A stretch of 64,000 bases of DNA from Oerskovia flava (GTDB lineage: Bacteria; Actinomycetota; Actinomycetes; Actinomycetales; Cellulomonadaceae), in contig NZ_JAOXSR010000007.1 of NCBI RefSeq assembly GCF_026163685.1, positions 62,001-126,000 on the forward strand, read 5' to 3'. Position numbers and translations under genes: made by a program. Shown here one piece after another: positions 33,388-52,558 of the stretch. The stretch's first letter is position 1, and the number at the start of each line of letters is the position of its first letter. The notes under the pieces are model-generated. The model did no database searches. It worked only from the letters and a program-made list of their open reading frames with translations, and was not told where the DNA came from.

Positions 33388-33453
33388 ACCGCGGTGGACG
33401 CCTGACCCGCCGAGCGACCCGCGGCGGTCGTGCGTGGGGTCGGGTGCGGCAGG

Positions 33454-34692: not shown

Positions 34693-34720
34693 CCCGCGCC
34701 TCGGGGACCCGAGGCGCGGG
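34693..34720. terminator. Bidirectional terminator between convergent genes
   Basis: Perfect 12-bp stem CCCGCGCCTCGG/CCGAGGCGCGGG with loop GGAC. It starts at the base after the winged-helix stop and lies 16 bp from the end of the NYN gene, so it can serve both. Confidence 0.8.
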
Positions 34721-34736
34721 CCGGACGCCCCGCGGT

Positions 34737-35357
34737 TCAGAGGTAGCGCAGCGGGTCGAACTCCTCCAGCGGGATGATCCGCACGCGCGGCAGCATCGTC
34801 GTGAACGCGCCGGCGTTGTCCTCGAGGTCGTAGAAGCCGAGGCCCCGCGAGGCGAGCTCGGTGAAGCGGGCGTTGACGAACTCCCGGAAGCACAGCAGGC
34901 CGACGCGCCGGTCGCCGTCGTCCAGCAGGCCCTCCACCTGGGGGATGAAGTCACCGTCGTGGCTGGCGAGCAGCACGTCGCCGGCACGGGAGTCCAGGGC
35001 CTCCAGCGTGCGCTGGATACCGATGTCGACGACCTTCTCCGAGCCGGAACCGGCCAGCGGGATGGGCCGGTAGCCCATCGCGAGCAGCGCCTGGACGAAC
35101 GCCATCGGCATCTGCCCGGACGACGCGTTGAGGAAGAACAGGGGCGTGACGGGCTGGCCCCACAGGTTCTGGGCGAAGTCGACGATCCGGTCCCACCGGG
35201 GTCGTTCCTCCGGGTTGGGCCGGTGGCCCAGGACGTTCATCCCGAGGGTCGCGTCGATGTTCTCCCCGTCGACGATCAGGTACGTGCGGCGCTCGGGTGC
35301 CGGCGAGGCGGCAGAGGGCACGAGCAGGGGACCGTTCGACGTGGGGGAGTCCGACAT
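34737..35357 (-). CDS. NYN-domain protein (LabA/DUF88-like putative RNase)
   Basis: PIN-like nuclease-fold protein, 206 residues. Conserved acidic residues are visible in LIVDGENID (~27-35), SEKVVDIGIQ (~105-114) and LLASHDGDFIPQ (~129-140), the layout of NYN metal-dependent RNases. The C-terminal part covers VGLLCFREFVNARF and an acidic end. Partner RNAs are unknown. It is divergent from the Dabb gene (41 bp). Confidence 0.85.
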   Translation of the reverse strand: MSDSPTSNGPLLVPSAASPAPERRTYLIVDGENIDATLGMNVLGHRPNPEERPRWDRIVDFAQNLWGQPVTPLFFLNASSGQMPMAFVQALLAMGYRPIPLAGSGSEKVVDIGIQRTLEALDSRAGDVLLASHDGDFIPQVEGLLDDGDRRVGLLCFREFVNARFTELASRGLGFYDLEDNAGAFTTMLPRVRIIPLEEFDPLRYL

Positions 35358-35398
35358 GGGGTCAGCCTAGACGGTCAGCGGACCCGTAGGGTGGGTGG

Positions 35399-35695
35399 AT
35401 GATCCGCCACACCGTCGTGTTCCGGCTCCGTCACGCCCCCGGGTCCGACGCCGAGTCCTCGTTCCTCACCGATGCCCGTGTGCTCGCCGGGATTCCCGGC
35501 GTGCACCGGTTCGAGCAGCTGCGCCAGACCAGCCCCAAGAACGACTACCACTTCGGGTTCTCCATGGAGTTCGACGACGCCGACGCCTACCGGGCGTACG
35601 ACGCGCACCCGGACCACCGCGCGTTCGTCGCCGAGCGCTGGGTCCCCGAGGTCGAGGACTTCCTCGAGATCGACTACGTACCGCTCGACGCCTGA
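35399..35695 (+). CDS. Dabb-family (stress-responsive A/B barrel) protein
   Basis: Small dimeric alpha-beta-barrel protein, 98 residues, of unknown specific function. Dabb pattern: IRHTVVFRL at the start, PGVHRFEQLRQTSPKNDYHFGFSMEFDD in the middle and YDAHPDHRAFVAERW near the end. Seven to eight residues around the His of HPDHRAF are the best conserved part of the family. A bidirectional hairpin follows. Confidence 0.88.
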   Translation: MIRHTVVFRLRHAPGSDAESSFLTDARVLAGIPGVHRFEQLRQTSPKNDYHFGFSMEFDDADAYRAYDAHPDHRAFVAERWVPEVEDFLEIDYVPLDA

Positions 35696-35700
35696 CAGCC

Positions 35701-35735
35701 CGAGGGCCGATGACCTGCTCGGTCACCGGCCCTCG
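35701..35735. terminator. Bidirectional terminator between Dabb and pspA genes
   Basis: 15-bp stem with a single A-C mismatch (CGAGGGCCG-A-TGACC opposite GGTCA-C-CGGCCCTCG) and loop TGCTC. Placed 5 bp after the Dabb stop and 30 bp from the pspA end. Confidence 0.8.
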
Positions 35736-35765
35736 TCGACCGTCGCGAGGTTCACGCCCCGGGCG

Positions 35766-36554
35766 TCACCAGGTCTCGGGCTGCGGAGCGTCCTCGACCG
35801 GCGTCACGGCCGTCGGGGTGATCTGCGGGGCGGTCGACGTCGGCCCGCCCTTGAGGGCCGCGAGGCGTGCCTCGATCTCGATCGACTCGCCCGACGACTC
35901 CAGCTCGGCGAACTGGGCGTCCAGGCTCGACGCCGCGACCTCGGCCTGGCCCAGCGCCTGCGCCTCCTCGCGGCGCACCATCTCCTCGAAGCGGGACACC
36001 TCGCTCGTCGGGTCGAGGACGTTGATCGAGCTGAGCGCGCCCTGGACGGTCTGCTGCGCCTCGGCGCTCTTCTGCCGGGCCACGAGCGAGTCGCGCTTCG
36101 ACTTCAGCTGGCCGAGCTTGTCCTTCATCTGGGCGAGCCCGGACTTGAGCTTCTCCACGGTCTCGCGCTGAGACGTGATGAGCGGCTCGGCCTGGCGGAC
36201 CTCGGACTCGGCGGCGATCTGCTTGCCGAGCGCGACCTTCGCCAGGTGGTCGAACTTGTCCGCGTTGACGGTGTCGCCGCCGGCGCGGTAGCGGTCGGCC
36301 TGGGCAGAGGCCGCGAGGGCCTTCTGGCCCCACTCCTGCACGGCAGAGACGTCCTCGTTGTAGTCCTGCTCCGCGAGGCGCAGGTTGCCGATCGTCTGTG
36401 CGATCGCCTGCTCCGCCTCCGCGATGTTGTTCGTGTAGTCGCGCACCAGCTGGTCCAGCATCTTCTGCGGGTCCTCTGCGCCGTCGATCAACGCGTTGAT
36501 GTTCGCCTTCGCGAGCTGGCTGATTCGTCCGAAGATGCTCTGCTTCTGCGCCAT
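35766..36554 (-). CDS. PspA/IM30-family membrane-stress protein
   Basis: Coiled-coil, ESCRT-III-like protein that protects the cytoplasmic membrane; 262 residues. Begins MAQKQSIFGRISQLAKANINALIDGAEDP, the amphipathic helix and PspA signature. A long heptad region (~30-200, rich in Q/E/K) and a short Pro/Thr tail follow. It is 66 bp downstream of nothing on its strand except the TPM gene that lies behind its start: order 5'-TPM (38,722) ... pspA is on the same strand with pspA downstream (65-bp gap), suggesting co-expression. Confidence 0.93.
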   Translation of the reverse strand: MAQKQSIFGRISQLAKANINALIDGAEDPQKMLDQLVRDYTNNIAEAEQAIAQTIGNLRLAEQDYNEDVSAVQEWGQKALAASAQADRYRAGGDTVNADKFDHLAKVALGKQIAAESEVRQAEPLITSQRETVEKLKSGLAQMKDKLGQLKSKRDSLVARQKSAEAQQTVQGALSSINVLDPTSEVSRFEEMVRREEAQALGQAEVAASSLDAQFAELESSGESIEIEARLAALKGGPTSTAPQITPTAVTPVEDAPQPETW

Positions 36555-38901: not shown

Positions 38902-40608
38902 CTACTGCGCAGTGTCGGAGATGCCCAGATCCTCCGCGTCCACGATGCGGTAGGCGTAGCCCTGCTCCGCCAGGAAGCGCTGCCGGTGCGCGGCGAAGTC
39001 CTGGTCCACGGTGTCGCGGGCGACGACGGCGTAGAAGTGGGCGGTGCGGCCGTCGGCCTTGGGGCGCATGATCCGCCCCAGGCGCTGCGCCTCCTCCTGG
39101 CGGGAGCCGAACGACCCGGACACCTGGATCGCGACGGACGCCTCGGGCAGGTCGATGGAGAAGTTCGCGACCTTGCTCACGACGAGCCGGTTGATCTCGC
39201 CGGAACGGAACTCCTCGAACAGGCGCTGGCGTTCGCGGACCGTCGTCGCGCCGGTGATGAGCGGCGCGTCGAGGTGCGCGGCGAGCTCCTCGAGCTGGTC
39301 GATGTACTGGCCGATGACGAGGACCTGGTCGTCCGGGTGCTGGGCGACGATCTGCTCGACCACCCGGTTCTTGCCCGTGGCGCTCGCCGCGAGGCGGTAC
39401 TTGTCCTCGGGCTCGGCGGTCGCGTACGTCATGCGGTCGGACTCGGGGAGCGTGAGGCGCACCTCGACGCAGTCGGCGGGCGCGATGTACCCCTGCGCCT
39501 CGATGTCCTTCCACGGCGCGTCGTAGCGCTTGGGGCCGATGAGGCTGAACACCTCGTCCTCGCGGCCGTCCTCGCGCACGAGCGTCGCGGTGAGCCCGAG
39601 CCGGCGCCGCGCCTGCAGGTCCGCGGTCATGCGGAAGATCGGCGCCGGCAGCAGGTGCACCTCGTCGTAGACGACGAGGCCCCAGTCGCGGGCGTCGAGC
39701 AGCTCGAGGTGCGTGTAGACGCCCTTCCGCTTGGTCGTCAGCACCTGGTAGGTCGCGATCGTCACCGGGCGGATCTCCTTGCGGGCGCCCGAGTACTCGC
39801 CGATCTCGTCCTCGGTGAGGCTGGTGCGCCGCACGAGCTCGTCGCGCCACTGCCGGGCGCTGACGGTGTTGGTGACGAGGATGAGCGTGGTCGTCCCGCT
39901 CTTGGCCATCGCGCCCGCGCCGACGATCGTCTTGCCGGCGCCGCACGGCAGCACGACGACGCCGGAGCCGCCGTGCCAGAACCCTTCGACGGCCTGCGCC
40001 TGGTACGGGCGCATCTCCCAGGGCTTGCCGGGTGCGTCGGACGGGTCCGCACCGTCGGGCACGCGCGGCGGGACGGTCGTGGTGAGCTCGATGGCGTGCT
40101 TCTCGCCGTCGACGTACCCGGCGAGGTCCTCGGCGGGCCAGCCGAGCTTGACGAGGACCTGCTTGAGGTGGCCGCGCTCGGACGGGTGGACGAGCACGGT
40201 GAGGTCGTCGACCCGCTCGCCCACGAGACCGGCGGTGCGCTTGGACTTGAGGACCTCGGCGAGGACGGCGCGGTCGGTCGCCTCTAGCACGAGGCCGTGC
40301 GTCGGGTGCTGGGACAGGGTGAGGCGCCCGTAGCGCGACATCGTCTCGGCGACGTCCACGAGCAGGGCGTGCGGCACCGAGTAGCGGCTGTACTCCAGGA
40401 GGACGGCGACGACCTGCTCCGCGTCGTGCCCGGCGGCGCGCGCGTTCCACAGCCCGAGCGGCGTCAGCCGGTAGGTGTGGACGTGCTCGGGCGCGCGCTC
40501 CAGCTCGGCGAAGGGCGCGATCGCACGACGCGCCTCACCGGCGCGGGGGTGGTCGACCTCGAGCAGCAGCGACTTGTCGCTCTGCACGATGAGGGGGCCG
40601 TCGTTCAT
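38902..40608 (-). CDS. DNA repair helicase XPB (bacterial)
   Basis: SF2 3'-5' DNA helicase, 568 residues. After an N-terminal domain (~1-180) come motif I PCGAGKT (221-227), motif II DEVH (315-318), motif III with the XPB-specific RED triad (GLTATLVREDG, R345-D347) and motif VI QEEAQRLGRIMRPK. Bacterial XPB occurs mostly in actinobacteria, and its repair role is inferred from archaeal and eukaryotic homologues. ATG 40608 has AGAAGGAG 4 nt upstream. Its upstream partner is the helicase-associated protein (46-bp gap). Confidence 0.95.
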   Translation of the reverse strand: MNDGPLIVQSDKSLLLEVDHPRAGEARRAIAPFAELERAPEHVHTYRLTPLGLWNARAAGHDAEQVVAVLLEYSRYSVPHALLVDVAETMSRYGRLTLSQHPTHGLVLEATDRAVLAEVLKSKRTAGLVGERVDDLTVLVHPSERGHLKQVLVKLGWPAEDLAGYVDGEKHAIELTTTVPPRVPDGADPSDAPGKPWEMRPYQAQAVEGFWHGGSGVVVLPCGAGKTIVGAGAMAKSGTTTLILVTNTVSARQWRDELVRRTSLTEDEIGEYSGARKEIRPVTIATYQVLTTKRKGVYTHLELLDARDWGLVVYDEVHLLPAPIFRMTADLQARRRLGLTATLVREDGREDEVFSLIGPKRYDAPWKDIEAQGYIAPADCVEVRLTLPESDRMTYATAEPEDKYRLAASATGKNRVVEQIVAQHPDDQVLVIGQYIDQLEELAAHLDAPLITGATTVRERQRLFEEFRSGEINRLVVSKVANFSIDLPEASVAIQVSGSFGSRQEEAQRLGRIMRPKADGRTAHFYAVVARDTVDQDFAAHRQRFLAEQGYAYRIVDAEDLGISDTAQ

Positions 40609-40654
40609 GCGTCTCCTTCTGCACGAGGGAGAGCACCTGTCGGCGACGGGTGCT

Positions 40655-43168
40655 CTATGCCGACGACCCGTCGTCGGGGTCGTCGGGTAGGTCAAGGGTG
40701 ACGGACGCGATGCGGTGGACCGCGACCGTGAGCTCGGCGTCCCGCACGAGATCCTGTGCGCGCAGGCGACCCGCCTCGAGCGTGACGGGCCGCACCCGGC
40801 GGCGTGCCGGCGAGCCCTGCGGCCCCACGACCTCCAACCAGACCATGGTGCCTGCGTCGATCGCCTCGCGCAGGAGCGACAACGCGTCGGCGGGGTCCGT
40901 TGTTCCGGAGCCCTCCCGCACGCGGGCCCGTTCCGGCCCGCCCCACGGACCCTGCCCGACGTCGGTCCCGCCGCGGCGAGGGCCGTCGCCACCGTCCGTG
41001 GTCGGGCCGGGCCCCGTGCGCTGGGCGTCGTCGGTGCGCCCGGTGGCCCGCAGCTGGGCGACGAGCCGCTCCGCCGCGGCCCGCGGGCTCGTCACCTCGA
41101 CCTGCCGCCCCCGGAAGCCGCCGCGCCGTGGCGCCGGCCGGGCCGGGGGGTGCTGGTCCTCGGTGCGCAGCACCCGGCCGTCCGGCCCCTCCACCGCGGA
41201 GACCAGGCCGTGCGCGCGCAGGGCGTCCTGCAGGTCCGCGGCGGGGGCGTGCGCGACGAGCACCGTGGGGGCGATCCGCACGAGCGTGAGGTGCCGCAGC
41301 GAGAGGTCCTCGACCAGGCCGGTGAGCAGCACCGGGTCCTCCGCGCGGACGTAGCTCATGGCCGCACCGACGCGCAGCCGGCCGTGGCGGCGCGCGGTGT
41401 CCCGCACGAGGTACTCCAGCGGCTGGGGGAGCGGGGTGCGCGAGTGCGCGGCGAGGTCGGTGAGCAGGTCCTCCGCGCCACGACCCTGGTCGAGGGCGCG
41501 CACCACCGAGTCGGGCGTGAACCGGACCGTCGTCGCGGCGCCGCGCGACTCGACCTCCGCGACGGCGTCGACGAGCCGCTCGAGGTCGCCCGACGGCCTG
41601 CCCGGGATGATGCCCGTGAGGTCGCCCTGGAGGAGCAGGTCGTCGACCTCGGGGGGCAGGACCCCCTCGAGCGCCGCCGCGAGCGCGGCGGTCGCGCCGC
41701 CGCCCCCACCCGGACCGGCGGCGCGCTCGATCGGCACCGGCGCCGTCGTCGGCTCCGTGCCGTCGGCCGGCTCGGGGGACCCCGCCAGGACCCGGCAGAG
41801 CTCGACGCCCTGCGGTGCGAGCGCACCGACCCCGGTCACGCCGAGCGCCTCGGCCTCGCGCAGCAGCCCGCGCACCGCCTGGGCGGGCGGCGCGGCGCGA
41901 GGGGTGTGCCAGTGCAGGACCTCGAGCACGGCGTCCTCGTCGAGCGCCGCACCGGGCTGCGCCGCGAGGGCGTCGAGCACGGCCCGGCGCAGGCGCACCA
42001 CCCACGGCCGGTGCATGTCCTGCTCGAGCGGGGAGCGGCGGGCGCCCTTCTCGTCGCGCGTTCCCACGAGCCACGGGGTGCGCGGGGATGCCCCCCACGC
42101 GGCCGTGAGCACGGCCCACCGCGCGGACAGGGTCTGCTCGGCCCAGTCCGTGGCCGCCACGGTGACGGCGTACGACGGCGGGTCGTCGCCGTCGTCGGCC
42201 ACCAGCCCCGCGGCGAAGGCCAGCTCGGCCGCGAGGACGGCCGCCTCGTCGTGCGTCCCGAGCTCGCGGGCGAGCCGGCGCAGGTCCCGGACCGACAGGC
42301 CGCCCGAGCGCAGCACGCTCGGCGGGTCCAGACGCCAGGCAGCGACGACGTGCGACACGTGCCGCACGATCTCGCGGGCGGCGTCGGCCGACTCGGCGGC
42401 GACGGTCGCCTCGGGTCGCTGCGGGGCCTCGGGGCGCGGGGGCCGGGCGTCGACCCGGGCGTGGGTGCGCCCGCCGCGCAGCGCCAGGGCCACCTCGCGC
42501 GGTAGGACGACGTGGCGCTCGTCGGAGCCCAGCAGCAGGCTGCGCTCGGTCAACCACCGGGTCGCGGTGACGCCCCGAGGGTCCGCGGTCGGGGCCACGC
42601 CGACAGGTGGGCCCCACGTGAGCGCCGCGAGGATCTCGCGCGCCCCGGGCGGCGCGTCGGCCAGCTCACGGCCCAGGTCGGCGGGGACGCGTCGACCGCG
42701 CGGGCCGAGCCCGGCCGGGTACGGGCCGAGCGCCTCGGCCAGGCCCGGCGACGGGCGCAGGTCGACGGCCGGACCGCCCGGCCTCGCGGCCGCGTCCCAC
42801 ACCAGCGCCTGCTCGACGAGCCGGTCGAGCGCGGCGAGCACGAGGTCGGCGTCGGGCTCGTCCCCCGCTTCCTCGGTGAGTGCTGCGAGCAGGGCGGTGG
42901 GGTCGAGCGGCGCGCCGGTCGGGGACGCGGACCCCTCCCCGAGCACCACCACGGCCTCCAGGACCTGGACCTCGAGCACGTCGAGCCGCACGAGCGCGCG
43001 GTCGATGCTCGTGCGGCTGGAGGCGCGGGCTGCGAGCGAGCGCAGCGTCGAGGGCGACGGGCGGCCCAGGTCCGGGCGGCGGAGCAGGAGCGCAACCAGG
43101 TCCTCGTCGCTGCGGGAGCGAAGAGCGTCGCTGAACGTACGGCCACCGGGCGTACTGGGGCTGGGCAT
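40655..43168 (-). CDS. Helicase-associated (Helicase_C_3-type) protein upstream of XPB
   Basis: 837-residue protein of unknown activity. The N-terminal part (FSDALRSRSDEDLVALLLRRPDL) and winged-helix-like middle are followed by a C-terminal Helicase_C_3-type region (~560-690: LLLQGDLTGIIPGRPS, TTVRFTPDSVVRALDQG, RHGRLRVGAAMSYVRAEDP). It has no Walker A motif, so it is not a helicase itself. Directly upstream of XPB on the same strand, an arrangement I know from other actinobacteria, hence a likely partner or regulator. Confidence 0.82.
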   Translation of the reverse strand: MPSPSTPGGRTFSDALRSRSDEDLVALLLRRPDLGRPSPSTLRSLAARASSRTSIDRALVRLDVLEVQVLEAVVVLGEGSASPTGAPLDPTALLAALTEEAGDEPDADLVLAALDRLVEQALVWDAAARPGGPAVDLRPSPGLAEALGPYPAGLGPRGRRVPADLGRELADAPPGAREILAALTWGPPVGVAPTADPRGVTATRWLTERSLLLGSDERHVVLPREVALALRGGRTHARVDARPPRPEAPQRPEATVAAESADAAREIVRHVSHVVAAWRLDPPSVLRSGGLSVRDLRRLARELGTHDEAAVLAAELAFAAGLVADDGDDPPSYAVTVAATDWAEQTLSARWAVLTAAWGASPRTPWLVGTRDEKGARRSPLEQDMHRPWVVRLRRAVLDALAAQPGAALDEDAVLEVLHWHTPRAAPPAQAVRGLLREAEALGVTGVGALAPQGVELCRVLAGSPEPADGTEPTTAPVPIERAAGPGGGGGATAALAAALEGVLPPEVDDLLLQGDLTGIIPGRPSGDLERLVDAVAEVESRGAATTVRFTPDSVVRALDQGRGAEDLLTDLAAHSRTPLPQPLEYLVRDTARRHGRLRVGAAMSYVRAEDPVLLTGLVEDLSLRHLTLVRIAPTVLVAHAPAADLQDALRAHGLVSAVEGPDGRVLRTEDQHPPARPAPRRGGFRGRQVEVTSPRAAAERLVAQLRATGRTDDAQRTGPGPTTDGGDGPRRGGTDVGQGPWGGPERARVREGSGTTDPADALSLLREAIDAGTMVWLEVVGPQGSPARRRVRPVTLEAGRLRAQDLVRDAELTVAVHRIASVTLDLPDDPDDGSSA

Positions 43169-43298: not shown

Positions 43299-43682
43299 GT
43301 GCCCACCGGCAAGGTCAAGTGGTTCGATACCGAACGCGGCTTCGGATTTATCGCCGCCGAAGACGGCGACGAGGTGTTCCTGCACGCCTCCGCGCTGCCC
43401 GCGGGCGCTCCTGCTCCCAAGCCGGGGGCGCGCGTCGACTTCGGTGTCGCGGACGGCAAGCGTGGCCCGCAGGCGCTCGCGGTCAAGCTTCTCGACCCGG
43501 TGCCCTCGGTCGCGAAGGCGCGTCGTCGGCCCGCCGACGAGATGGCGATCATCGTCGAGGACCTCATCAAGGAGCTCGACGGGGTCGGCAACGGTCTGCG
43601 CCGTGGCCGCTTCCCCGAGAAGCCCAAGGCGACGACGGTCGCGACCGTGCTGCGCGCCGTCGCCGACGAGCTCGAGGCCTGA
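43299..43682 (+). CDS. Cold-shock-domain protein with C-terminal extension
   Basis: Single-stranded nucleic-acid-binding protein, 127 residues. The CSD (~1-65) has RNP1-like KWFDTERGFGFIA and RNP2-like DEVFLHASAL. A helical extension of ~60 residues (AIIVEDLIKELDGVGNGLRRGRFPEKPKATTVATVLR) follows, as in longer actinobacterial Csps; classical Csps are ~67 residues. GTG 43299 has GAGG about 5 nt upstream. The next gene starts one base after its stop, so they form one transcription unit. Confidence 0.9.
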   Translation: MPTGKVKWFDTERGFGFIAAEDGDEVFLHASALPAGAPAPKPGARVDFGVADGKRGPQALAVKLLDPVPSVAKARRRPADEMAIIVEDLIKELDGVGNGLRRGRFPEKPKATTVATVLRAVADELEA

Positions 43683-43683
43683 G

Positions 43684-44496
43684 ATGACGGTGGCCGCAGC
43701 GGAGGAGAAGCGCACGACGACCCGCAAGGTGTCTGCGCGTGCCGCGAAGGACGCGGTGCTGCTCGGCGCCGTCGAGGTCGCCCGTGCCGCGGCCGAGGAG
43801 GTCGCGGAGCGAGTGGCCGACGTCGGCGAGCACCTGGGCACGCTCGTCGAGGACGACCGGCTCGTCTCGCACTACTTCGCGTGCACGCTGCGCGGGTACC
43901 GCGGGTGGCGCTGGACCGTGACGCTCGCGCGCATCCCGCGCAGCCGCAACGCGACGGTGTGCGAGGTCGAGCTGCTCCCGGGCGACGAGGCGATCCTCGC
44001 CCCTGCCTGGCTGCCCTGGTCCGAGCGCATCCGCCCGGGTGACATCGGCGCCGGCGACGTGCTGCCGTTCGTCCCCGACGACCCGCGCCTCGAGCCCGGG
44101 TTCACGTCGAGCGGTGACGAGGAGGTCGATGCGGTCGCGATCGACGAGCTCGCGCTCGCCCGGGTGCGGGTGCTCTCCCCGCAGGGCCGCGACGAGGCCG
44201 CCGAGCGGTGGTACCGGGGCACCCGCGGGCCGACGACGCCGGGCGCCGTCGCGTCCGCCGAGGGCTGCGGTACGTGCGGCTTCCTCGTTCCGCTCCAGGG
44301 CGCGCTGGGTCAGCTCTTCGGCGTCTGCGTCAACGAGTGGTCGCCCGACGACGGCAAGGTCGTGAGCCTCGACCACGGATGCGGCGCGCACTCCGAGACC
44401 GACGTGGAGCCGCACCCGACCGACTGGCCGGCGCCCGCGCCCGTGATCGACGAGCTGGGCGTGGAGATCGTCGACGGGGCGGTCCCCGAACGGTGA
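43684..44496 (+). CDS. DUF3027-family protein
   Basis: Actinobacterial protein of unknown function, 270 residues. Conserved block VSHYFACTLRGYRGWRWTVTLAR (~60-82), then LLPGDEAILAPAWLPWSERIRPGDIGAGD. A C-terminal cysteine cluster GCGTCGF ... FGVCVNEW ... DHGCGAHSE (~195-240) looks like a structural zinc site; four to five Cys plus His are available. Sandwiched between the cold-shock gene (1 bp) and the ATPase gene (4-bp overlap), it is very likely functionally tied to both. Confidence 0.85.
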   Translation: MTVAAAEEKRTTTRKVSARAAKDAVLLGAVEVARAAAEEVAERVADVGEHLGTLVEDDRLVSHYFACTLRGYRGWRWTVTLARIPRSRNATVCEVELLPGDEAILAPAWLPWSERIRPGDIGAGDVLPFVPDDPRLEPGFTSSGDEEVDAVAIDELALARVRVLSPQGRDEAAERWYRGTRGPTTPGAVASAEGCGTCGFLVPLQGALGQLFGVCVNEWSPDDGKVVSLDHGCGAHSETDVEPHPTDWPAPAPVIDELGVEIVDGAVPER

Positions 44497-47400
44497 CCGA
44501 GGACGTCTTCGGGACGGCGGCGCTGCGCGGCGCGGTCACGGAGGCGTGGCGCGGCTCGCCGACGAGGTTCCGCGAGGACGCGAACACCGAGGAGGACCAC
44601 GCCCACGGGTATTACCGGGGGCGGGTCGTCGTCGAGCTCGCGCAGAACGCGGCGGACGCCGCGGCGCGGGCTGGAGAGCCCGGGCGACTGACCCTCCACC
44701 TGCGGCGCGACCCCGCCGGCACCTGGTCGCTGCGCGCGCACAACACCGGTCTGCCCCTGGATGCCGACGGTGTGGCGTCCCTGGCGTCGATGCGCGCCTC
44801 GGCGAAGACCCACCCCGGCCAGGTCGGCCGCTTCGGCGTCGGGTTCGCCGCGGTGCGGTCCGTCGCCGACGAGATCTCCGTGCGGTCCGTGGGCGGCGGG
44901 GTGCGGTTCTCCCTGGAGGCCACCCGCGAGGCGCTCGAGGAGGCGTCGCGCGGCACCGCCGGCGGGGACGTCGACGACGCCGGGCGCCGCCTCGCGCAGG
45001 CCGTGGCCGAGCGCGGCGACGCGCTGCCCGTCCTACGCCTGCCCTTCCCGGCCGACGGCGTCACGGACGGGACCGTCGTCGAGCTGCGCCTGCGGGACGC
45101 CGCCGCGGTCGTCGAGGTCCGGCGCCAGCTCGCGGAGGTCGACGACGCCCTGCTGCTCGCGCTGCCGGCGCTCGCCGAGATCGTCGTCAGCACCGACCCG
45201 GAGGCCCTCGCCGGCGGCGCCGACGACCAGGGACGTGAGCACGGGCCCACGACGCGCCGGCTCGCCGACGTGGGGTCGCGGTGGACGGTCCTGCGGGCGG
45301 GCGGCGACCTGCCGCCGGACGTCGTCGCGTCGTTGCCCGTCGAGCTGCGCCGGTCCGCGTGGACGGTCGTGTGGGCCCTGCGGTCGGACGACGGCCGCCC
45401 CCGCCCCCTCGTGGCGGCACCCGTGCTGCACGGCCCCACTCCCACGGACGAGCCGCTGACGTTCCCCGCACTGCTCGTCGCGTCGTTCCCGCTCGACCCC
45501 GGGCGTCGCCACGTCGCTCCCGGTCCGGTGACCGACGCCGTCGCGCAGCACGCGGGGCTCCAGTTCGCCCGGCTGCTCGCCGACGTCGCGTCCACGGGCT
45601 CCGACGTCCTCGACCTCGTGCCGACCGGGATGCCCGCCGGTGCGCTCGACGCGGCGATCCGGGACGCGGCGCTCGCCGCGCTGCGGAGCACGCCGCTGCT
45701 CGCTGGCGCCGACCCGGGCGTCGACGACCCGGACGTCAACCCGGACCTCGACGACAGAGCCGCGGGTGCGCTCGTCGCACCGCAGGACGCCCAGATGCTG
45801 CTCGGTCCGGCGGGCCGCGACCCGCGGGTGCAACAGGTGCTGGGACGCGCGGTGGGCGACCTCGTCGACGTCCCCGCCCGGCAGCACGCGCTCGCGCGGT
45901 CGCTCGGTGTGCGGGCGCGCGACCTGGCGGACCTGCTCGACGACGTCCCCGCGGGCCTCCCGCCCGAGCGGTGGCACGAGGTGTACGCGGCGCTGGCCCC
46001 GTCGGTCGGCGAGCAAGGCGTCGCGGAGTCGCTCGGCGCCATGGTGGTGCCGCTCGCGGACGGGCGTCGGGTCCGCGGCCCACGGGGGACGGCGCTCCTG
46101 CCAGAGGGCTCCGGTGGCCGGCTCGGGGAGCTCGCGCGCGCCCTGGAGGTGCGGGTCGTCGACCCGGCCGCGGCCCATCCGGTCCTCGAGCGGCTGGGTG
46201 CCGTGCCGACGTCGGCCCGCCGGCTCCTCGACGACGCGACCGTCCGCGCCGCGGTGCGGGAGGCCGCACAGACCCTGCTCGACGACCCGCACGACGACCT
46301 CGCCCTCGAGGTGACGTCCGCGGCGCTCGAGCTCGTCGCGCTCGCGACCGGCGAGGCGGGCGCGAGCGACGACCTACCCTTCTGGCTCGGGGAGCTCCCG
46401 CTGGCCACCGACGAGGGCGACCTGTTGCCCGCGCGGGACTGCGTACTGCCCGGCAGCTGGGCGGCGGACGTCTTCGACGCGCTCGTGCCCGTCGCCGCGG
46501 ACGTGGTCGACCGCTGGGGGCAAGACGTCCTGCGCGCGGTCGGCGTCCACACCGGCCTCGCGGTCTACCGGGTCGTCGACGTGCTCGTGCCGCTCGACGG
46601 GTCCTCCGACGCCGGCGATCACGACGATCTGGCCGGTCCAGGGAGCGACGCAGGTGACGGGCCGCAGGCGTGGCTCGCGTCCTGGTCTTCCTACGTGGCG
46701 TACCTGGGGGAGACGCTGGGCGCAGGAGCGTGGGTCGGTGACGTCGAGGCGGTCTCCGACCTCGACGCGGTCGCTGACGACGCCTGGCCCGACCTGCTCG
46801 CTCGCCTCGCCCAGGACCCGGCGGCTCGAGCCGCGCTCGTCACCCCCGTCCGTGCGGAGGGCGGCGCGGGCGCGCACATCCGCACCGCGCCGTCGTACAC
46901 CGCGTGGTGGCTCCGCGAGCACCTGGGTGCGCCCTTCGCCGCCGACGTCCCGCTCCTGGCCCCCGTGCCGCCCGCCGTCGCGGGCCTCGACCCCATCGTG
47001 CGGCGGGCGCTGGGCGAGGTGGCGGACCTCGGCGAGGTCACCCCGCAGGACTGGCCCTGCGTCCTGGCCGCGCTGCCCGACGTCGGCAGCCCGGTCGACC
47101 CGCACGTCGCCCTGGCCGTGTGGCGGGGCCTGGCGGCGCTGGCCGCGACGGGGACCGAGCTCGACCCGCTCCCGGACCGGTTGCCCGCCCTGCACGGCCA
47201 GGACGTCCAGGTCGTCGACGCCGGTGACGTGGCCGTCACGTCGTCGACCCAGCACGCCCAGCTCGCACCCGTCGTGCCGACGACCGGGGACACCGACGCG
47301 CTCGCCGACCTCCTCGACCTGCCGGTCGTGCCCGGCGAGGGCCATGCCGAGCGGCCGGACGAACCGGGCGTCGCGGTGCCGCTCGACCCGCGCGTGCGGG

Positions 47401-47669
47401 CGCTCGGACCGCTGCCCGCGCACTGGTTCGAGCACGACGACCTGACGGTCGGAGGGCAGGGCGTCGACTGGTGGGTCGCCGGCGGCGAGGTGCACGCCGC
47501 GACCTCGGCCGGCCTCGCGCGCGCCCTCGCGGAGGTCTGCGGACGCCCCGGCTGGCGGCACCTGTTCGCCGCGGCGCTCGCGGAGCCCGGCGAGGCGGCG
47601 ACGCTCCTCCCGGAGACCGTCTGGGACGACCGGGGCGGCGTCAGCCCTGCCGGGACGCCTCCTCGGTGA
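44493..47669 (+). CDS. Sacsin-N-like GHKL ATPase protein
   Basis: Large cytosolic protein, 1,058 residues, with a single recognised Hsp90-like ATP-binding domain at the N-terminus. N-box VVVELAQNAADAA (E48, N52), ADP-contact HNTG (83-86) and GRFGVGFAAVRSVAD G-box (112-126). The rest (~300-1,058) has no motif I know but is rich in leucine and alanine helices. GTG 44493 overlaps the DUF3027 stop (GTGA). Sacsin-type domains act as chaperone-like ATPases; the client here is unknown. The last 29 bp overlap the convergent phosphatase gene. Confidence 0.85.
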   Translation: MTEDVFGTAALRGAVTEAWRGSPTRFREDANTEEDHAHGYYRGRVVVELAQNAADAAARAGEPGRLTLHLRRDPAGTWSLRAHNTGLPLDADGVASLASMRASAKTHPGQVGRFGVGFAAVRSVADEISVRSVGGGVRFSLEATREALEEASRGTAGGDVDDAGRRLAQAVAERGDALPVLRLPFPADGVTDGTVVELRLRDAAAVVEVRRQLAEVDDALLLALPALAEIVVSTDPEALAGGADDQGREHGPTTRRLADVGSRWTVLRAGGDLPPDVVASLPVELRRSAWTVVWALRSDDGRPRPLVAAPVLHGPTPTDEPLTFPALLVASFPLDPGRRHVAPGPVTDAVAQHAGLQFARLLADVASTGSDVLDLVPTGMPAGALDAAIRDAALAALRSTPLLAGADPGVDDPDVNPDLDDRAAGALVAPQDAQMLLGPAGRDPRVQQVLGRAVGDLVDVPARQHALARSLGVRARDLADLLDDVPAGLPPERWHEVYAALAPSVGEQGVAESLGAMVVPLADGRRVRGPRGTALLPEGSGGRLGELARALEVRVVDPAAAHPVLERLGAVPTSARRLLDDATVRAAVREAAQTLLDDPHDDLALEVTSAALELVALATGEAGASDDLPFWLGELPLATDEGDLLPARDCVLPGSWAADVFDALVPVAADVVDRWGQDVLRAVGVHTGLAVYRVVDVLVPLDGSSDAGDHDDLAGPGSDAGDGPQAWLASWSSYVAYLGETLGAGAWVGDVEAVSDLDAVADDAWPDLLARLAQDPAARAALVTPVRAEGGAGAHIRTAPSYTAWWLREHLGAPFAADVPLLAPVPPAVAGLDPIVRRALGEVADLGEVTPQDWPCVLAALPDVGSPVDPHVALAVWRGLAALAATGTELDPLPDRLPALHGQDVQVVDAGDVAVTSSTQHAQLAPVVPTTGDTDALADLLDLPVVPGEGHAERPDEPGVAVPLDPRVRALGPLPAHWFEHDDLTVGGQGVDWWVAGGEVHAATSAGLARALAEVCGRPGWRHLFAAALAEPGEAATLLPETVWDDRGGVSPAGTPPR

Positions 47670-48207
47670 CCACCGAGCACAGGGCGTCGACGCCCGCGGT
47701 GATCTGCGCGAACGCGACGTCGTAGGCGCCCTCGCCCCGGCCGTAGGGGTCGGCGAGGTCGTTCTCGTGCGCGGTGTTCGCGAACCGCGCCCGGAGCCCG
47801 GTCGCGTGCGCCAGGAGGTCGCGGAGGCGCTCGGCGTCGCTCGCGGCACCCGCGGGCGCCTCGTGCCCTCCGGCGAGTCGCGCGAGCTCGAGGAAGGTGA
47901 ACGTCGAGCGCAGCGCCGCCGGGTGCAGGCGGAGCACCGCCTGGCGGTGCTCCGCGGTCATGGTGATCACCACGTCGGCCGCGGCGACGATCGGCGTCGT
48001 GAGCTGGCGGGAGCGGAAGGTGTGCGGGTCGACGCCCTCGGCGGCGACCCGGCGTGCCATGGAGTCCGTCATCGGGTCGCCGACGAGCGCACGCGTCCCT
48101 GCGCTCGAGACGCTGACGGAGTCGTCGAGACGGGCGGCCAGGAGGCGATCGGCGGCGGGCGAGCGGCAGATGTTGCCGGTGCACACGACGAGGACGGAGG
48201 TGGGCAT
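47641..48207 (-). CDS. Low-molecular-weight protein-tyrosine phosphatase
   Basis: Cys-dependent phosphatase, 188 residues, probable antagonist (Wzb-like) of the tyrosine autokinase at 62,243. P-loop VCTGNICRSP with nucleophile C9 and R15; general-acid Asp in the late DPYGRG segment. It is ~35 residues longer than classical enzymes through an insert around 115-140 (HEAPAGAASDAERLRDLL). Divergent from the DUF4012 gene (94 bp), so it marks the left edge of the exopolysaccharide locus. Confidence 0.92.
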   Translation of the reverse strand: MPTSVLVVCTGNICRSPAADRLLAARLDDSVSVSSAGTRALVGDPMTDSMARRVAAEGVDPHTFRSRQLTTPIVAAADVVITMTAEHRQAVLRLHPAALRSTFTFLELARLAGGHEAPAGAASDAERLRDLLAHATGLRARFANTAHENDLADPYGRGEGAYDVAFAQITAGVDALCSVVTEEASRQG

Positions 48208-48301
48208 ACGAGCCTTCCGGTCGGTGTGACGTTCCCGGCAAATCTAGCGCCCGCTGCGTTCTGACCGCAGACTCGTGCGCAGGGATCAAGAGGGGGCACT
48301 C

Positions 48302-50170
48302 GTGACACATCCCGGTTGGGGTTCGCAGTGGGCTGGTGTGCAGGTCGTGGAACCACCGCGGGAGGAGGGGCCCACGCCCCGTGTCCGTGCGGTGCGAGGA
48401 CGCCGGCGGCCGCGGCGCCGGCGGACGGTCCTGATCGTCGTCGCGGCCGTGCTCGTCGTCGCGATCGCGGTGATGGCCTGGGTCGCGGTCGACGCCCTGC
48501 GCGCGCGCACGGCGCTGACCCAGGCGGCGCAGACCGTGGCCGAGCTGCAGCAGGTCGTCGTCGACGGTGACACCGCCCGGGCCGAGGCGCTCGTCGCCGA
48601 CCTCCAGCGCACGTCGGCGCGGTCGGTCGAGCTGACGACGGGTCCGCACTGGCGGGTGGCGTCGACGCTGCCCTGGGTCGGCCCGAACACCGACGCGGTG
48701 ACGACCCTGGCGGACGTCGTCGACGACCTCGCGCAGGACGCGTTGCCGCAGCTCACCGAGGCTGCGCGGGTCGCGGCCCCGGGTGCGATGACACCCGTCG
48801 ACGGGAGGGTGGACCTGGCGCCGATCGAGGCCGTGCGGGCCGACGTCGTGCGCGCGGACGCGGCGGTGGGAAACGCTGTCGAGCGGGTGCGGGCGCTCGA
48901 GGGAGCGGGTCTCGTCGACGTGCTCGACGAGGCTGCGTCGACCTTGACCGCCGAGCTCGTCGAGGTGCACGCGACGACCGCGACGGCCGCGCGTGCGGTC
49001 CAGCTCGTCCCGCCCATGCTGGGCACCGACGGCCCGCGCGACTACCTGCTGCTCGTGCAGAACAACGCCGAGCCGCGGGCGACCGGAGGCATCCCGGGGT
49101 CCGTGGTGCACCTGCGCGCGGACGACGGTGAGGTGACCTTCGTCGGGCAGGAGTCCGGGAGCGACCTGGGTGCCCTGGACGAGCCCGCCCTGGCACTCAG
49201 CGGGGCGGAGCAGGCGTTGTTCGGCCCGGACCTCGGGCGCTACATGCTCAACGTGAACTTCACGCCGGACTTTCCGCGGTCCGCGGAGCTGGCACGGGCG
49301 ATCTGGGCGGAGCGGTTCGGGGAGGACGTCGACGGCGTCCTGTCGATGGACCCGGTGGCGCTCTCCCTGGTGCTCGGGGCCTCCGGCGCCGTGGAGGTCG
49401 ACGACCCGACGGGCGTGACGGCCGCGCTGACGGCCGAGAACGCCGTGGACCTGCTGCTCAACCGCGTCTACCTCGACATCGAGGACACCGGCGCGCAGGA
49501 CGAGTTCTTCGGCGCCGCGGCGGGCGCAGTCTTCGACTCGGCGATCTCGGGCGAGGGCGACGCGGCAGCCGTCGTCACCTCGTTGGCGGAGGCTGCTCGC
49601 CAGGGCCGCTTTCTCGTCTGGTCGGCGCACGAGCAGGAACAGTCGTTGCTCGGCGGAACGGTGCTCAGCGGTGATCTTGTGGGCGAAAGGTCCGGTTCGC
49701 CGGTGGTAGGCGTGTACCTCAATGCGTCGAGTGCCGCGAAGATGGGGTACTACCTCGACACCTCATTCGATGTGACGCGCATCACATGTCGGCCCGACGG
49801 GTCGCAGTCGTTGACCCTCGCGGTCACCCTGACGTCCACCCTCGACGAGGGTGGTGCGGGGGGTCTGCCCGCATACGTGACGAGCTCTGCGGACCGCAGC
49901 GGGACCATCCACACCAACCTCCTCGTGTACGCCCCGCGAGGCGGCGGAATCCTGGAATCCAGCGGATCCGACGGCGTCGACCAGCTCTTCTCGCAGTCCC
50001 ACGAGGGCCTGGTCGTGGGCGGTCGTACGGTCGCCGTACCGCCGGGCGGCGAGCAGACGTACACGTACGCGATCGTCACCGGGAAGAACCAGCGCGGGCC
50101 GCTCGAGCTCCGCACCACCCCGGGGGCGCGGGAATCTCGGACCGTGTCGGGGGGTCGCGAGTGCGGGTGA
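48302..50170 (+). CDS. DUF4012 membrane protein at the exopolysaccharide locus
   Basis: 622-residue protein. An Arg-rich cytosolic start and one transmembrane helix (~45-65) lead to a large exterior region. DUF4012 core: LPWVGPNTDAV, DYLLLVQNNAEPRATGGIPGS (~250-270), VNFTPDFPRSAELARAIW and the late NVLVYAPRGG-like strand. Biochemical role unknown; the family is recurrent in actinobacterial polysaccharide loci, suggesting a role in polymer assembly or wall attachment. GTG 48302 has GAGGGGG ~5 nt upstream. Its last third has visibly lower GC than its first. Confidence 0.85.
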   Translation: MTHPGWGSQWAGVQVVEPPREEGPTPRVRAVRGRRRPRRRRTVLIVVAAVLVVAIAVMAWVAVDALRARTALTQAAQTVAELQQVVVDGDTARAEALVADLQRTSARSVELTTGPHWRVASTLPWVGPNTDAVTTLADVVDDLAQDALPQLTEAARVAAPGAMTPVDGRVDLAPIEAVRADVVRADAAVGNAVERVRALEGAGLVDVLDEAASTLTAELVEVHATTATAARAVQLVPPMLGTDGPRDYLLLVQNNAEPRATGGIPGSVVHLRADDGEVTFVGQESGSDLGALDEPALALSGAEQALFGPDLGRYMLNVNFTPDFPRSAELARAIWAERFGEDVDGVLSMDPVALSLVLGASGAVEVDDPTGVTAALTAENAVDLLLNRVYLDIEDTGAQDEFFGAAAGAVFDSAISGEGDAAAVVTSLAEAARQGRFLVWSAHEQEQSLLGGTVLSGDLVGERSGSPVVGVYLNASSAAKMGYYLDTSFDVTRITCRPDGSQSLTLAVTLTSTLDEGGAGGLPAYVTSSADRSGTIHTNLLVYAPRGGGILESSGSDGVDQLFSQSHEGLVVGGRTVAVPPGGEQTYTYAIVTGKNQRGPLELRTTPGARESRTVSGGRECG

Positions 50171-50230
50171 AGTGTGCTTCATTTGAAAAAGGACCAACGG
50201 TGCACGAACGCACCGCGGTCCGCGGTACCC

Positions 50231-50249
50231 GGTCAACATTGTGTTAACC
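50231..50249. promoter_or_regulatory. Imperfect palindrome before the LPXTG gene
   Basis: GGTCAACATTGTGTTAACC has 8-bp arms matching at seven positions around a TTG centre and is AT-rich against its surroundings. It ends 18 bp before the start codon. Either an operator or part of the promoter; the binding protein is unknown. Confidence 0.4.
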
Positions 50250-50267
50250 GTACCCAGGGGGGATTAC

Positions 50268-50840
50268 ATGTTCGTTCGTCGTGCTTTCGCTGTGGCTGGA
50301 ATCGCCACAGCCCTCATTCTCAGCCCGGTCGCCGCTCAGGCATACGAGGCGGATGACTACACCGTCGGGGTCTCCGAGACCACACCGGTCGCGGGGGAGA
50401 CGTTCACCGTCACCATCGACGGACCGGCCGGCAACCCGACCATCGCGCTGACCGTCTCGTCCGACGCCGTCCCGGACAGCGCCATCACCATCGCGGGCTC
50501 GAGGACCCTCGTGAAGGACACCGACGCCAACGGCGACGCGACCTTCGCGGTGACGCTCACGCAGCCTGCCACGTACACGATCGTCGCGACCGACGCCGAC
50601 GGCACGGTCATCTCGACGCAGACCGTCCAGGTCCTCAGCTCGTCCGCCGCAGGCGGGTCCGGCGACGCCGGGTCCGGCGCCGCCGGCTCGGGCGACGCTG
50701 CGGGCAGCAGCGGCTCGGGCAGCTGGCTGCCGGCCACCGGCGCGTCCACCGTGCCGCTCGCGATCGGCGCCGGTGCGCTCGTCGCCGGTGGTGGCGTACT
50801 CCTGCTGATGCTGCGCAAGCAGCGCAGCGCCAAGGCCTGA
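50268..50840 (+). CDS. LPXTG-anchored surface protein
   Basis: Small wall-anchored protein, 190 residues. Signal peptide (~1-25, AQA cleavage), one Ig-like beta domain (~28-123), a Gly/Ser/Ala spacer (~126-152), then LPATG (154-158), a hydrophobic helix and the positive tail MLRKQRSAKA. Housekeeping sortase is expected to link it to peptidoglycan; no sortase gene lies in the window. ATG 50268 has GGGGGGA 7 nt upstream. A strong terminator follows, so it is transcribed apart from the sugar-transferase operon. Confidence 0.9.
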   Translation: MFVRRAFAVAGIATALILSPVAAQAYEADDYTVGVSETTPVAGETFTVTIDGPAGNPTIALTVSSDAVPDSAITIAGSRTLVKDTDANGDATFAVTLTQPATYTIVATDADGTVISTQTVQVLSSSAAGGSGDAGSGAAGSGDAAGSSGSGSWLPATGASTVPLAIGAGALVAGGGVLLLMLRKQRSAKA

Positions 50841-50920
50841 CCCGCCGCCGCGCAGCGGCGACGCACAGGTACGCGCAGACAGGTACGCGGGCTCGCCCCG
50901 CCGTACCACGTGGCCGGACG

Positions 50921-50970
50921 CGGCAAGACCCCCGGGGACGCAGTCGTTCCGACTCCCGGGGGTCTTGCCG
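50921..50970 (+). terminator. Strong hairpin terminator after the LPXTG gene
   Basis: Perfect 15-bp stem CGGCAAGACCCCCGG/CCGGGGGTCTTGCCG (16 with one further G-C pair) around a ~20-nt loop, 80 bp after the stop. It is the longest perfect stem I found in the window. Confidence 0.85.
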
Positions 50971-51058
50971 TCCTCCGAGCACCTCTCGATCGTCCGCGTT
51001 CTGCAGGAAGAGCGCCGTCGTCACCAGTTGTGCCGCCGGCGCGCTCAGGGGGCTCCGC

Positions 51059-52558
51059 ATGACAGTTCACGAGACGAGAGGACCGGGAATCAGTGGATTT
51101 CCCGTCCCTCGACCATTCGACACCGGGCAGCTCGCCCGCATCGCCACGGGGACGTCCCGGCGGCCGTCCTGGAGGGCGCGCCTGCCGCGTGCCGTCCTTC
51201 TCACCGACACCGTCGCGGTCGTGCTGGCGCTCGCGGCTGCGTCCGTGATCCGCTTCGACACGCTGGTGCCACGCGGTTCGACCTACGCGGGCATCACGGT
51301 GCTCCTCGTCGTGGGCTGGCTCTTCACGCTCGTGGTGGCTGACACCCACGACACTGCGATCCTCGGCGCGGGCGCCACGGAGTACATCCGGGTCACGAAC
51401 GCCACCGTGGTGTTCTTCGGGCTCGTCGCGATCGCCGCGTACCTCGCCAAGTTCGACCTGGCGCGAGGGTATTTCGCCGTCGCGCTCCCGCTCGGCCTGC
51501 TGCTCCTGCTCGTGGGCCGGCACACCGTCCGCCGGAACCTCGCGGCACGCCGCGCGACGGGCCGGTGCCAGTCGAAGACCGTCGTCGTCGGCGGGCGGGA
51601 GGGCTCGGCCCACCTCGTCGGCCAGCTCCGCGAGGCGAGCGCTGCCGGCTTCGACGTCGTCGGGCTGTGCGTCCCGGGCGGGCAGCGCCACGAGGGGGAG
51701 CAGATCGCCGGCGTCCCGGTCGTCGGGGACGTGTCCGACGCCGCGGGCGTGCTCGGGGTCCTCGGTGCCGACACGATCGTGGTCACCGAGGCCGACGAGA
51801 TCACCCCCAAGAGCCTCAAGCGGCTCGCGTGGGAGCTCGAGCCGTGGGGCGCCGACCTCATCCTGGCCCCGAAGCTCACCGACGTCGCCGGTCCGCGCAT
51901 CCACACCCGTCCGGTCGCCGGCCTGCCGCTCCTGCACGTCGAGGCGCCCGGCTACTCCGGTCCGCAGCACATGCTCAAGCGGCTGTTCGACGTCGTGGCG
52001 ACCACCGTGCTCGTCCTGCTCTTCGCGCTGCCCATGATCGTCACGGCCGTCGCCATCAAGGTGACGAGCCCGGGGCCCGTCCTGTTCCGCCAGGAGCGGG
52101 TCGGCGTCCAGGGCAGGCCGTTCACGGTGCTGAAGTTCCGGTCGATGGTCGACGGCGCCGAGTCCCGTCTCGAAGAGGTGCTGGGCGTCGGCAACGTCGG
52201 GGTGTTCTACAAGAGCACGACCGACCCCCGCATCACGAAGGTCGGCGCGTTCATCCGCCGGTACTCCATCGACGAGCTGCCGCAGCTGTTCAACGTGCTC
52301 CAGGGCAGCATGAGCCTCGTGGGCCCACGCCCGCAGGTCGGGCTCGAGGTCGAGCAGTACGACGACGAGATCGGTCGCCGCCTGCTCGTCAAGCCCGGGC
52401 TGACCGGGCTGTGGCAGGTCAGCGGTCGCAACAACCTCACCCTCGACGAGAGCGTGCGTCTCGACCTGTACTACGTGGAGAACTGGACCATGGCCGGCGA
52501 CCTGGTGATCCTCTTCCGGACGGCCAAAGCCGTCCTCGGGAGGGACGGTGCGTACTGA
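51059..52558 (+). CDS. Polyprenyl glycosylphosphotransferase (priming sugar transferase)
   Basis: Starts exopolysaccharide repeat-unit synthesis by moving a sugar-1-phosphate onto undecaprenyl phosphate. 499 residues: four N-terminal transmembrane helices (~45-165), a CoA-binding-like domain (~175-290, [14 protein letters not shown]), one helix (~310-335) and the conserved catalytic domain (~300-499: [84 protein letters not shown]). ATG 51059 has AGGGGG 7 nt upstream. Head of the assembly operon. Confidence 0.95.

Follow-up and report, generated by a model that had tools for sequence, protein, structure and literature searches.

A conserved cold-shock protein and DUF3027 locus of Actinomycetes, joined in about half of the class by a sacsin-like ATPase: a possible RNA-protein or stress module

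What joins a cold-shock protein, a DUF3027 protein and a sacsin-like ATPase in one compact run of genes? The question is raised by positions 43299-47669 of a 64,000-nucleotide stretch, here called the window, of the 4.11 Mb genome of Oerskovia flava. Three genes follow each other there on the + strand: a CspB-type cold-shock protein of 127 residues (43299-43682, GTG start at 43299 and TGA at 43680-43682), a DUF3027 protein of 270 residues (43684-44496, ATG at 43684 and stop at 44494-44496) and a sacsin-like GHKL ATPase of 1,058 residues (44493-47669). The first two are separated by a 1-bp gap, and the stop of the DUF3027 gene overlaps the start of the ATPase gene in the sequence GTGA (44493-44496, + strand). 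The original prediction had described this trio as a candidate undescribed system. The gap and the overlap that it reported are present, and profile matches and alignment confirmed the extension of the cold-shock protein, the Cys cluster of DUF3027 and the GHKL character of the ATPase.

The answer that we tentatively prefer, as a possibility that falls short of being probable, is that the class Actinomycetes carries a housekeeping locus built on CspB and DUF3027, that about half of the class adds the sacsin-like ATPase, and that the proteins act together in an RNA-protein or stress module. The gene set is conserved and probably serves a housekeeping role.

The cold-shock domain (CSD) occupies residues 3-63 of the 127-residue protein (Pfam CSD, E value 1.4e-16), and the C-terminal extension matches the dimerizing helical-hairpin region of Mycobacterium tuberculosis CspB. 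Among solved structures the best phmmer match was that same protein (PDB 9XW3, E 2.4e-35), which aligned end to end (residues 2-126 of the cold-shock protein with 1-133 of 9XW3), whereas the other 39 PDB sequences listed matched only up to residue 69. The window protein and the M. tuberculosis CspB are orthologues. Passages of PMC12840758, published in 2026, report that the M. tuberculosis protein dimerizes through a C-terminal two-helix hairpin to give a four-helix bundle, and that two small RNAs (sRNAs) were bound with a KD of about 1e-10 M. They propose CspB as a mycobacterial RNA chaperone, with Hfq and ProQ orthologues undetected there and the sRNA chaperone treated as unknown. The likeness of the window protein extends over the whole length including the extension; dimerization and RNA binding are reported for the M. 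tuberculosis protein and are predicted by analogy for the one in the window.

The helical tail, described as mycobacterial in passages of PMC12840758, proved to be class-wide. Full-length CspB was found in 295 of the 296 class genomes searched (E 1e-20 or better), and the places listed reach model position 126-127 of 127; the only genome without a match is split into about 1,310 contigs. A sample of the phylum gave the same picture: all 25 class genomes matched up to position 126-127, with E no higher than 1.4e-51. Of the 221 genomes from outside the class, 131 matched at 1e-15 or better (best 2.6e-21); the matches listed stop by position 102, and none of the 221 has a full-length CspB. Neither Hfq nor ProQ was matched in any of 64 class genomes, whereas Hfq was matched in 5 and ProQ in 1 of 14 control genomes. 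Deletion of cspB in M. smegmatis gave less biofilm and more peroxide tolerance, according to passages of PMC12300830.

DUF3027 was recognized by Pfam PF11228 (E 1.7e-85, 286.3 bits against a gathering cut-off of 25). The predicted architecture has an N-terminal alpha/beta domain (about residues 20-105), followed at 195-236 by a C-terminal Cys4 (+His) stretch in which C195, C198, C215, C233 and H236 are invariant across 44 aligned full-length proteins. The AlphaFold2 model is confident in parts only (mean pLDDT 74.9, pTM 0.42), and a Foldseek search found nothing that reached E 0.001. In VIA comparisons the best match was a designed cystatin-fold protein (Z 9.3, 76 residues, root-mean-square deviation (rmsd) 3.0), and matches were confined to residues 19-105. 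The modelled N-terminal domain thus has a cystatin- or NTF2-like look, from which we claim no ancestry. PDB sequence matches (best 0.045 and 0.0022) were judged to be due to chance. A basic N-terminal tail was considered as a sign of RNA binding and rejected, the tail being weakly basic (median +3) and the protein acidic. The median charge of DUF3027 is -5.9 per 100 residues, compared with -6.8 for the ATPase and -2.5 and -1.7 for the two helicase-type neighbours described below (XPB and the Helicase_C_3 protein); since the ATPase is equally acidic, the acidity of DUF3027 is no special sign.

The distribution of DUF3027 follows that of full-length CspB closely. It was matched in 294 of the 296 class genomes and in 117 of 119 genomes of the order; G422 and G494 gave no match. 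All 25 class genomes of the phylum sample have it, and none of the 221 other genomes does. There is one match per genome, except for two in the class genomes G269, G398, G491 and G514, and two order genomes carry two DUF3027 pieces side by side. Among named records the closest relatives are from Oerskovia (81% identity), a record named Sphaerisporangium cinnabarinum (78%) and Cellulosimicrobium (78%), and identity is about 75% in Promicromonospora, Isoptericola and Sanguibacter. In 16 of the 117 order genomes only the N-terminal half of DUF3027 was matched. Forms without the Cys4 part were seen in families f2 and f5 and in one f97 genome (L031:9843-10325, L042:9713-10252, L043:9870-10505, L044:9753-10250 and L045:9865-10353). 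Members of the family are named SCO4330 and Rv0877 in passages of PMC4255298 and PMC7781554, and in 2013 SCO4330 was included among the signature genes of actinobacteria (PMC4255298). According to a passage of PMC6585502, six genes had more than five transposon insertions in a set of mutants whose actinorhodin was decreased or abolished, and SCO4330 was among the six.

The third protein was identified by NCBIfam NF047352, the sacsin N-terminal ATP-binding domain, at 66.7 bits against a cut-off of 50; the same model gave matches in 11 of 14 control genomes, none above the cut-off. Pfam HATPase_c fell below its cut-off (E 6e-5), and at E up to 0.1 the Pfam matches were HATPase and SACS only. Residues E48, Q51, N52, D55, A56, N84, G86, G112, G115 and G117 are invariant in 32 of 32 aligned ATPases, as are 12 of the 13 motif positions checked in this set; we take these residues to belong to the named GHKL (Bergerat) motifs. 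An Arg-Arg pair in the middle region (338-339) is also invariant in the 32 sequences. The protein would be expected to have ATPase activity. The AlphaFold2 model is well defined (mean pLDDT 88.3). Foldseek found TRAP1 as the best match (E 1.8e-9, TM score 0.22 normalized by query), and in VIA the SR1 region of sacsin scored Z 14.0 (179 residues, rmsd 3.3), with TRAP1 and HtpG tied at 13.9. In the model the N-terminal and middle regions thus have an Hsp90-type fold. The remaining 600 or so C-terminal residues form a long part to which the whole-model comparisons assigned no fold. Internal repeats in this part were considered and rejected, as strong hhalign scores occurred only between mutually overlapping windows.

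According to passages of PMC3629688, the sacsin repeat contains an ATP-binding segment (sr1) followed by a middle domain with a conserved Arg (sr2), and sacsin proper has three internal repeats together with ubiquitin-like, DnaJ and HEPN domains. The window ATPase resembles sacsin in the sr1-type ATP-binding fold of its model and in the invariant Arg pair of the middle region, and R338 or R339 may correspond to the conserved Arg of sr2. It differs in being a single unit of 1,058 residues whose Pfam matches include no ubiquitin-like, DnaJ or HEPN domain. With Hsp90, HtpG and TRAP1 the modelled protein shares the arrangement of N-terminal plus middle domain; it differs from them in its C-terminal part, and the only HSP90 family profile matched, NF010683, reached 18.5 bits compared to 455 required. 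The sacsin passages of PMC3710099 do not mention the window ATPase. Elsewhere in the O. flava genome a second GHKL/sacsin-domain match was seen at contig C3:90397-90711 (L147), below threshold at 34.9 bits in an 813-codon frame; this is perhaps an HSP90-type protein.

The ATPase is less widespread than its two neighbours. At E 1e-10 or better it was matched in 151 of the 296 class genomes, a count that is unsorted for paralogues and includes some weak matches. In the order sample 39 of the 119 genomes gave a match at the same threshold, and 33 remained after six with only the N-terminal piece of a 1,556-1,778-codon frame had been counted as paralogues (G479, G533, G560, G590, G593 and G594); one of the 33, G536, was judged from contig-edge fragments, one of them beside its DUF3027. 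The phylum sample gave 18 matches in 246 genomes, of which 13 were in class genomes and 5 were weak N-terminal matches elsewhere. A second, patchily distributed sacsin-like family with frames of about 1,556-1,602 codons was seen in G479, G533, G585, G590, G593, G594, G598 and G610, and may possibly consist of TmtA-type proteins.

Gene order was examined in 121 mapped loci, comprising the window, 40 genomes chosen for the most part as single members of their families, and 80 named best matches to the window, the last being biased to its kin. CspB lies on the same strand as DUF3027 in 107 loci. Measured from the CspB stop, the first matched DUF3027 residue lies at -47 to +200 bp in 55 loci and at 0.5-8.2 kb in a further 51; the remaining locus has CspB on the other side. 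The expectation that the genes stay together across genomes was upheld for this pair: among the matches listed, the two genes share a contig in 106 genomes and are then always less than 10 kb apart (at most 9,427 bp), cspB being upstream on the same strand in 98 and in another orientation in 8, and in 8 of 114 genomes the two are on different contigs.

The expectation was also upheld for DUF3027 and the ATPase where the latter is present. Among the matches listed, 82 of 100 class genomes have the ATPase on the DUF3027 strand and under 1.5 kb downstream; in the other 18 it is elsewhere within 10 kb (8), on another contig (8) or far away (2). The N-terminus of the ATPase was matched on the DUF3027 strand in 54 loci. 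In 53 of these it starts within 243 bp of the DUF3027 stop, and in 18 it falls at the position of the four-base overlap, distances that refer to the first profile-matched residue and not to proven starts, in a set with many kin of the window. The coupling of DUF3027 and ATPase is beyond chance.

Such arrangements would also be seen if unrelated core genes had simply persisted in an old, stable block held together by operon economy and sharing no mechanism. This explanation is possible though short of probable, and it stands close to the joint module. The recurring overlap and the place of the ATPase directly downstream of DUF3027 in most listed bearers speak against it, as does the phyletic boundary that the CspB tail and DUF3027 have in common. 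In its favour, the block as a whole comprises XPB, Helicase_C_3, HAD, CspB, MFS, DUF3027 and ATPase genes, the MFS and HAD members being known from the loci inspected. In the two loci tested, L101 and L030, CspB and DUF3027 have an MFS gene between them. L066 has one downstream of the ATPase and L081 one downstream of DUF3027, and in L117 and L144 cspB is preceded by a HAD gene. The divergent helicase-type genes that the original prediction had mentioned were found on the - strand of the window: a Helicase_C_3 protein at 40655-43168 (PF13625, 8e-38) and an XPB-type DNA repair helicase at 38902-40608 (NF045503, 845.5 bits against a cut-off of 610, E 1.6e-254), with both starts read by eye from the translations of the open reading frames.

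Co-evolution was analysed by partial correlations of evolutionary distance among five proteins (CspB, DUF3027, ATPase, XPB and the Helicase_C_3 protein, HelC3) at 26 loci. The full distance correlations among all five were 0.83-0.95, which fits with vertical inheritance of the block and favours the stable-block explanation. The partial correlation was 0.36 for CspB-ATPase, and others were 0.38 (XPB-HelC3), 0.34 (DUF3027-HelC3), -0.10 (CspB-HelC3) and -0.29 (ATPase-XPB). Special co-evolution of CspB with DUF3027 or of DUF3027 with the ATPase was rejected as a candidate signal, partial distance correlation giving it no support.

Several of these and other results weigh against the joint module. 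The partial correlations of CspB-DUF3027 and DUF3027-ATPase were -0.03 and -0.12, and higher values were obtained for ATPase-HelC3 (0.75), DUF3027-XPB (0.55) and CspB-XPB (0.47); since the larger values lie with XPB or HelC3, the trio is not singled out, which again suits the stable block. CspB and DUF3027 are often separated by an MFS gene or several kb and 145 of the 296 class genomes gave no ATPase match, so that the trio did not hold up as a fixed unit. The phyletic boundary shared by the CspB tail and DUF3027 may reflect one evolutionary event. The acidic DUF3027 is no obvious RNA binder, and passages of PMC10454040 report that cspB of M. smegmatis lacks cold induction, so that "cold shock" is merely a name. 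Eight of the ten genomes with the ATPase on another contig or far away belong to one family, f80. No DUF3027 match was found in any of the 14 control genomes, which include Corynebacterium glutamicum, a member of the class, and genome G422 carries an ATPase match (2.2e-70) without a DUF3027 match; these two results weaken the joint module and strengthen the explanation by conserved order. In the f80 loci L148, L151, L152 and L156 a longer ATPase homologue (1,142-1,257 codons) was seen away from DUF3027, with purF/purM-type (L148, L152) and SCP_3 (L148, L156) neighbours; one neighbour in L151 had no Pfam match.

The tightness of the downstream half of the locus raises another explanation, in which DUF3027 is paired with the ATPase, as client or adaptor of an Hsp90-like chaperone, independently of CspB. 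Their coupling stays tight even at loci that have CspB 1-8 kb off, and all 33 order genomes with an orthologous ATPase carry the longer DUF3027. Orthologous ATPase was found in 0 of 16 genomes with N-terminal-only DUF3027 vs 33 of 101 with the longer form (Fisher p 0.005), a contrast that also counts for the joint module but spans three families and hence few independent events. Against such a pair, 68 of the 101 order genomes with the longer DUF3027 have no ATPase, the partial distance correlation of the two proteins is negative, family f80 splits them, and G422 has the one without the other. We consider a CspB-independent pair unlikely.

The original prediction had further suggested a defence module. 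An anti-phage or abortive-infection system with the ATPase as a TmtA-like effector could draw on eight PADLOC TmtA profiles that match the ATPase (best 2.8e-27), two of which span about 540 and 850 profile positions, on a match of the cold-shock protein to PADLOC CSD_V (8.4e-12), and on matches of XPB to helicase profiles of PbeA (4.3e-23) and others. TmtA is known to us as a PADLOC-DB label only; the likeness lies in the N-terminal GHKL region and extends somewhat beyond it in two profiles. The difference is one of size and coverage: the profiles have 1,302-1,782 positions compared to the 1,058 residues of the ATPase, and the best match, PDLC03964, covers positions 19-331 (313 of 1,538, about a fifth), mainly the GHKL region. 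The widest, PDLC03971, covers positions 38-884 of 1,782, so that no match spans a whole profile. CSD and helicase domains are generic, and we read the PADLOC matches in and around the trio as shared domains; six further neighbours had no PADLOC match. CspB and DUF3027 occur in nearly every class genome, and the correlated distances of the five proteins fit vertical inheritance. No ATPase match was found in 50,697 phage records, and the three plasmid-collection records with a match are replicons of 0.4, 2.7 and 11.85 Mb that are non-mobilizable. Defence is thus disfavoured and appears very improbable. The distribution of the ATPase points both ways: it is patchy, as might be expected of a defence gene, yet in most bearers tied to a fixed place beside near-universal genes. 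DUF3027 was matched in two phage records and six plasmid records. The phage records (MT838041.1 and MT835499.1, unannotated "Bacteriophage sp." from human fecal samples) encode DUF3027 with 60% and 54% identity and are perhaps bacterial DNA filed as phage.

If the tentatively preferred joint module is correct, its mechanism could be sketched as follows. CspB would dimerize by its helical tail and hold small or single-stranded RNAs, as shown for the M. tuberculosis orthologue. DUF3027, acidic and with a Cys4 zinc-type site, would be a protein-binding adaptor of the CspB RNA-protein complex, and the ATPase would work under stress as a clamp of the Hsp90 type, loading, remodelling or refolding complexes of CspB and DUF3027 or their clients. 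Since the orthologous CspB binds RNA as a dimer, Hfq and ProQ were not found in the 64 class genomes searched, and a Cys4 protein and an Hsp90-like ATPase are encoded alongside, an RNA-protein complex with chaperoned assembly or turnover would be the simplest joint mechanism. It would entail physical association of the proteins, zinc in DUF3027 and remodelling of RNA. The suggestion that an RNA-binding protein is joined to a GHKL/sacsin ATPase in a conserved coupled set was thus sustained, and a role in RNA handling or stress is plausible in view of passages of PMC12840758 and PMC12300830.

The description of the system as new was partly justified. In the open-access literature searched, it holds for the ATPase and for the link between the genes, and no paper was found that pairs DUF3027 with a cold-shock protein; passages of PMC6719143, PMC12709188 and PMC9037510 contain nothing on the gene set. 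It does not hold for CspB, which has been characterized, or for DUF3027, listed in 2013 (PMC4255298).

The surroundings of the trio were also inspected. The Helicase_C_3 and XPB genes (38902-43168) are divergent neighbours of cspB in many mapped loci. HelC3 shares a domain type with the N-terminus of XPB and may be a partner of it. Beyond XPB, region 33430-36554 encodes an AlkZ-like DNA glycosylase, a weak NYN-domain match and a PspA/IM30 protein. On the other side, region 47641-52555 encodes a low-molecular-weight phosphotyrosine phosphatase, a DUF4012 protein, a weak Ig-like (Big_1) match and a bacterial sugar transferase, and looks like a piece of a polysaccharide cluster. Promoter, terminator and Rfam scans found nothing.

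A bolder form of the joint module, in which CspB and DUF3027 constitute a class-wide small-RNA chaperone machine and the sacsin-like ATPase is the dedicated ATP-driven remodeller of that complex, seems to us doubtful and rather improbable. If true, it would provide a bacterial case of a sacsin-type chaperone working on an RNA-protein particle. If DUF3027 is the constant partner of CspB, the question of the sRNA chaperone would become testable and a near-universal family would gain a role. A single-unit bacterial relative of sacsin with a genetic partner would be a tractable model for sacsin-type ATPases.

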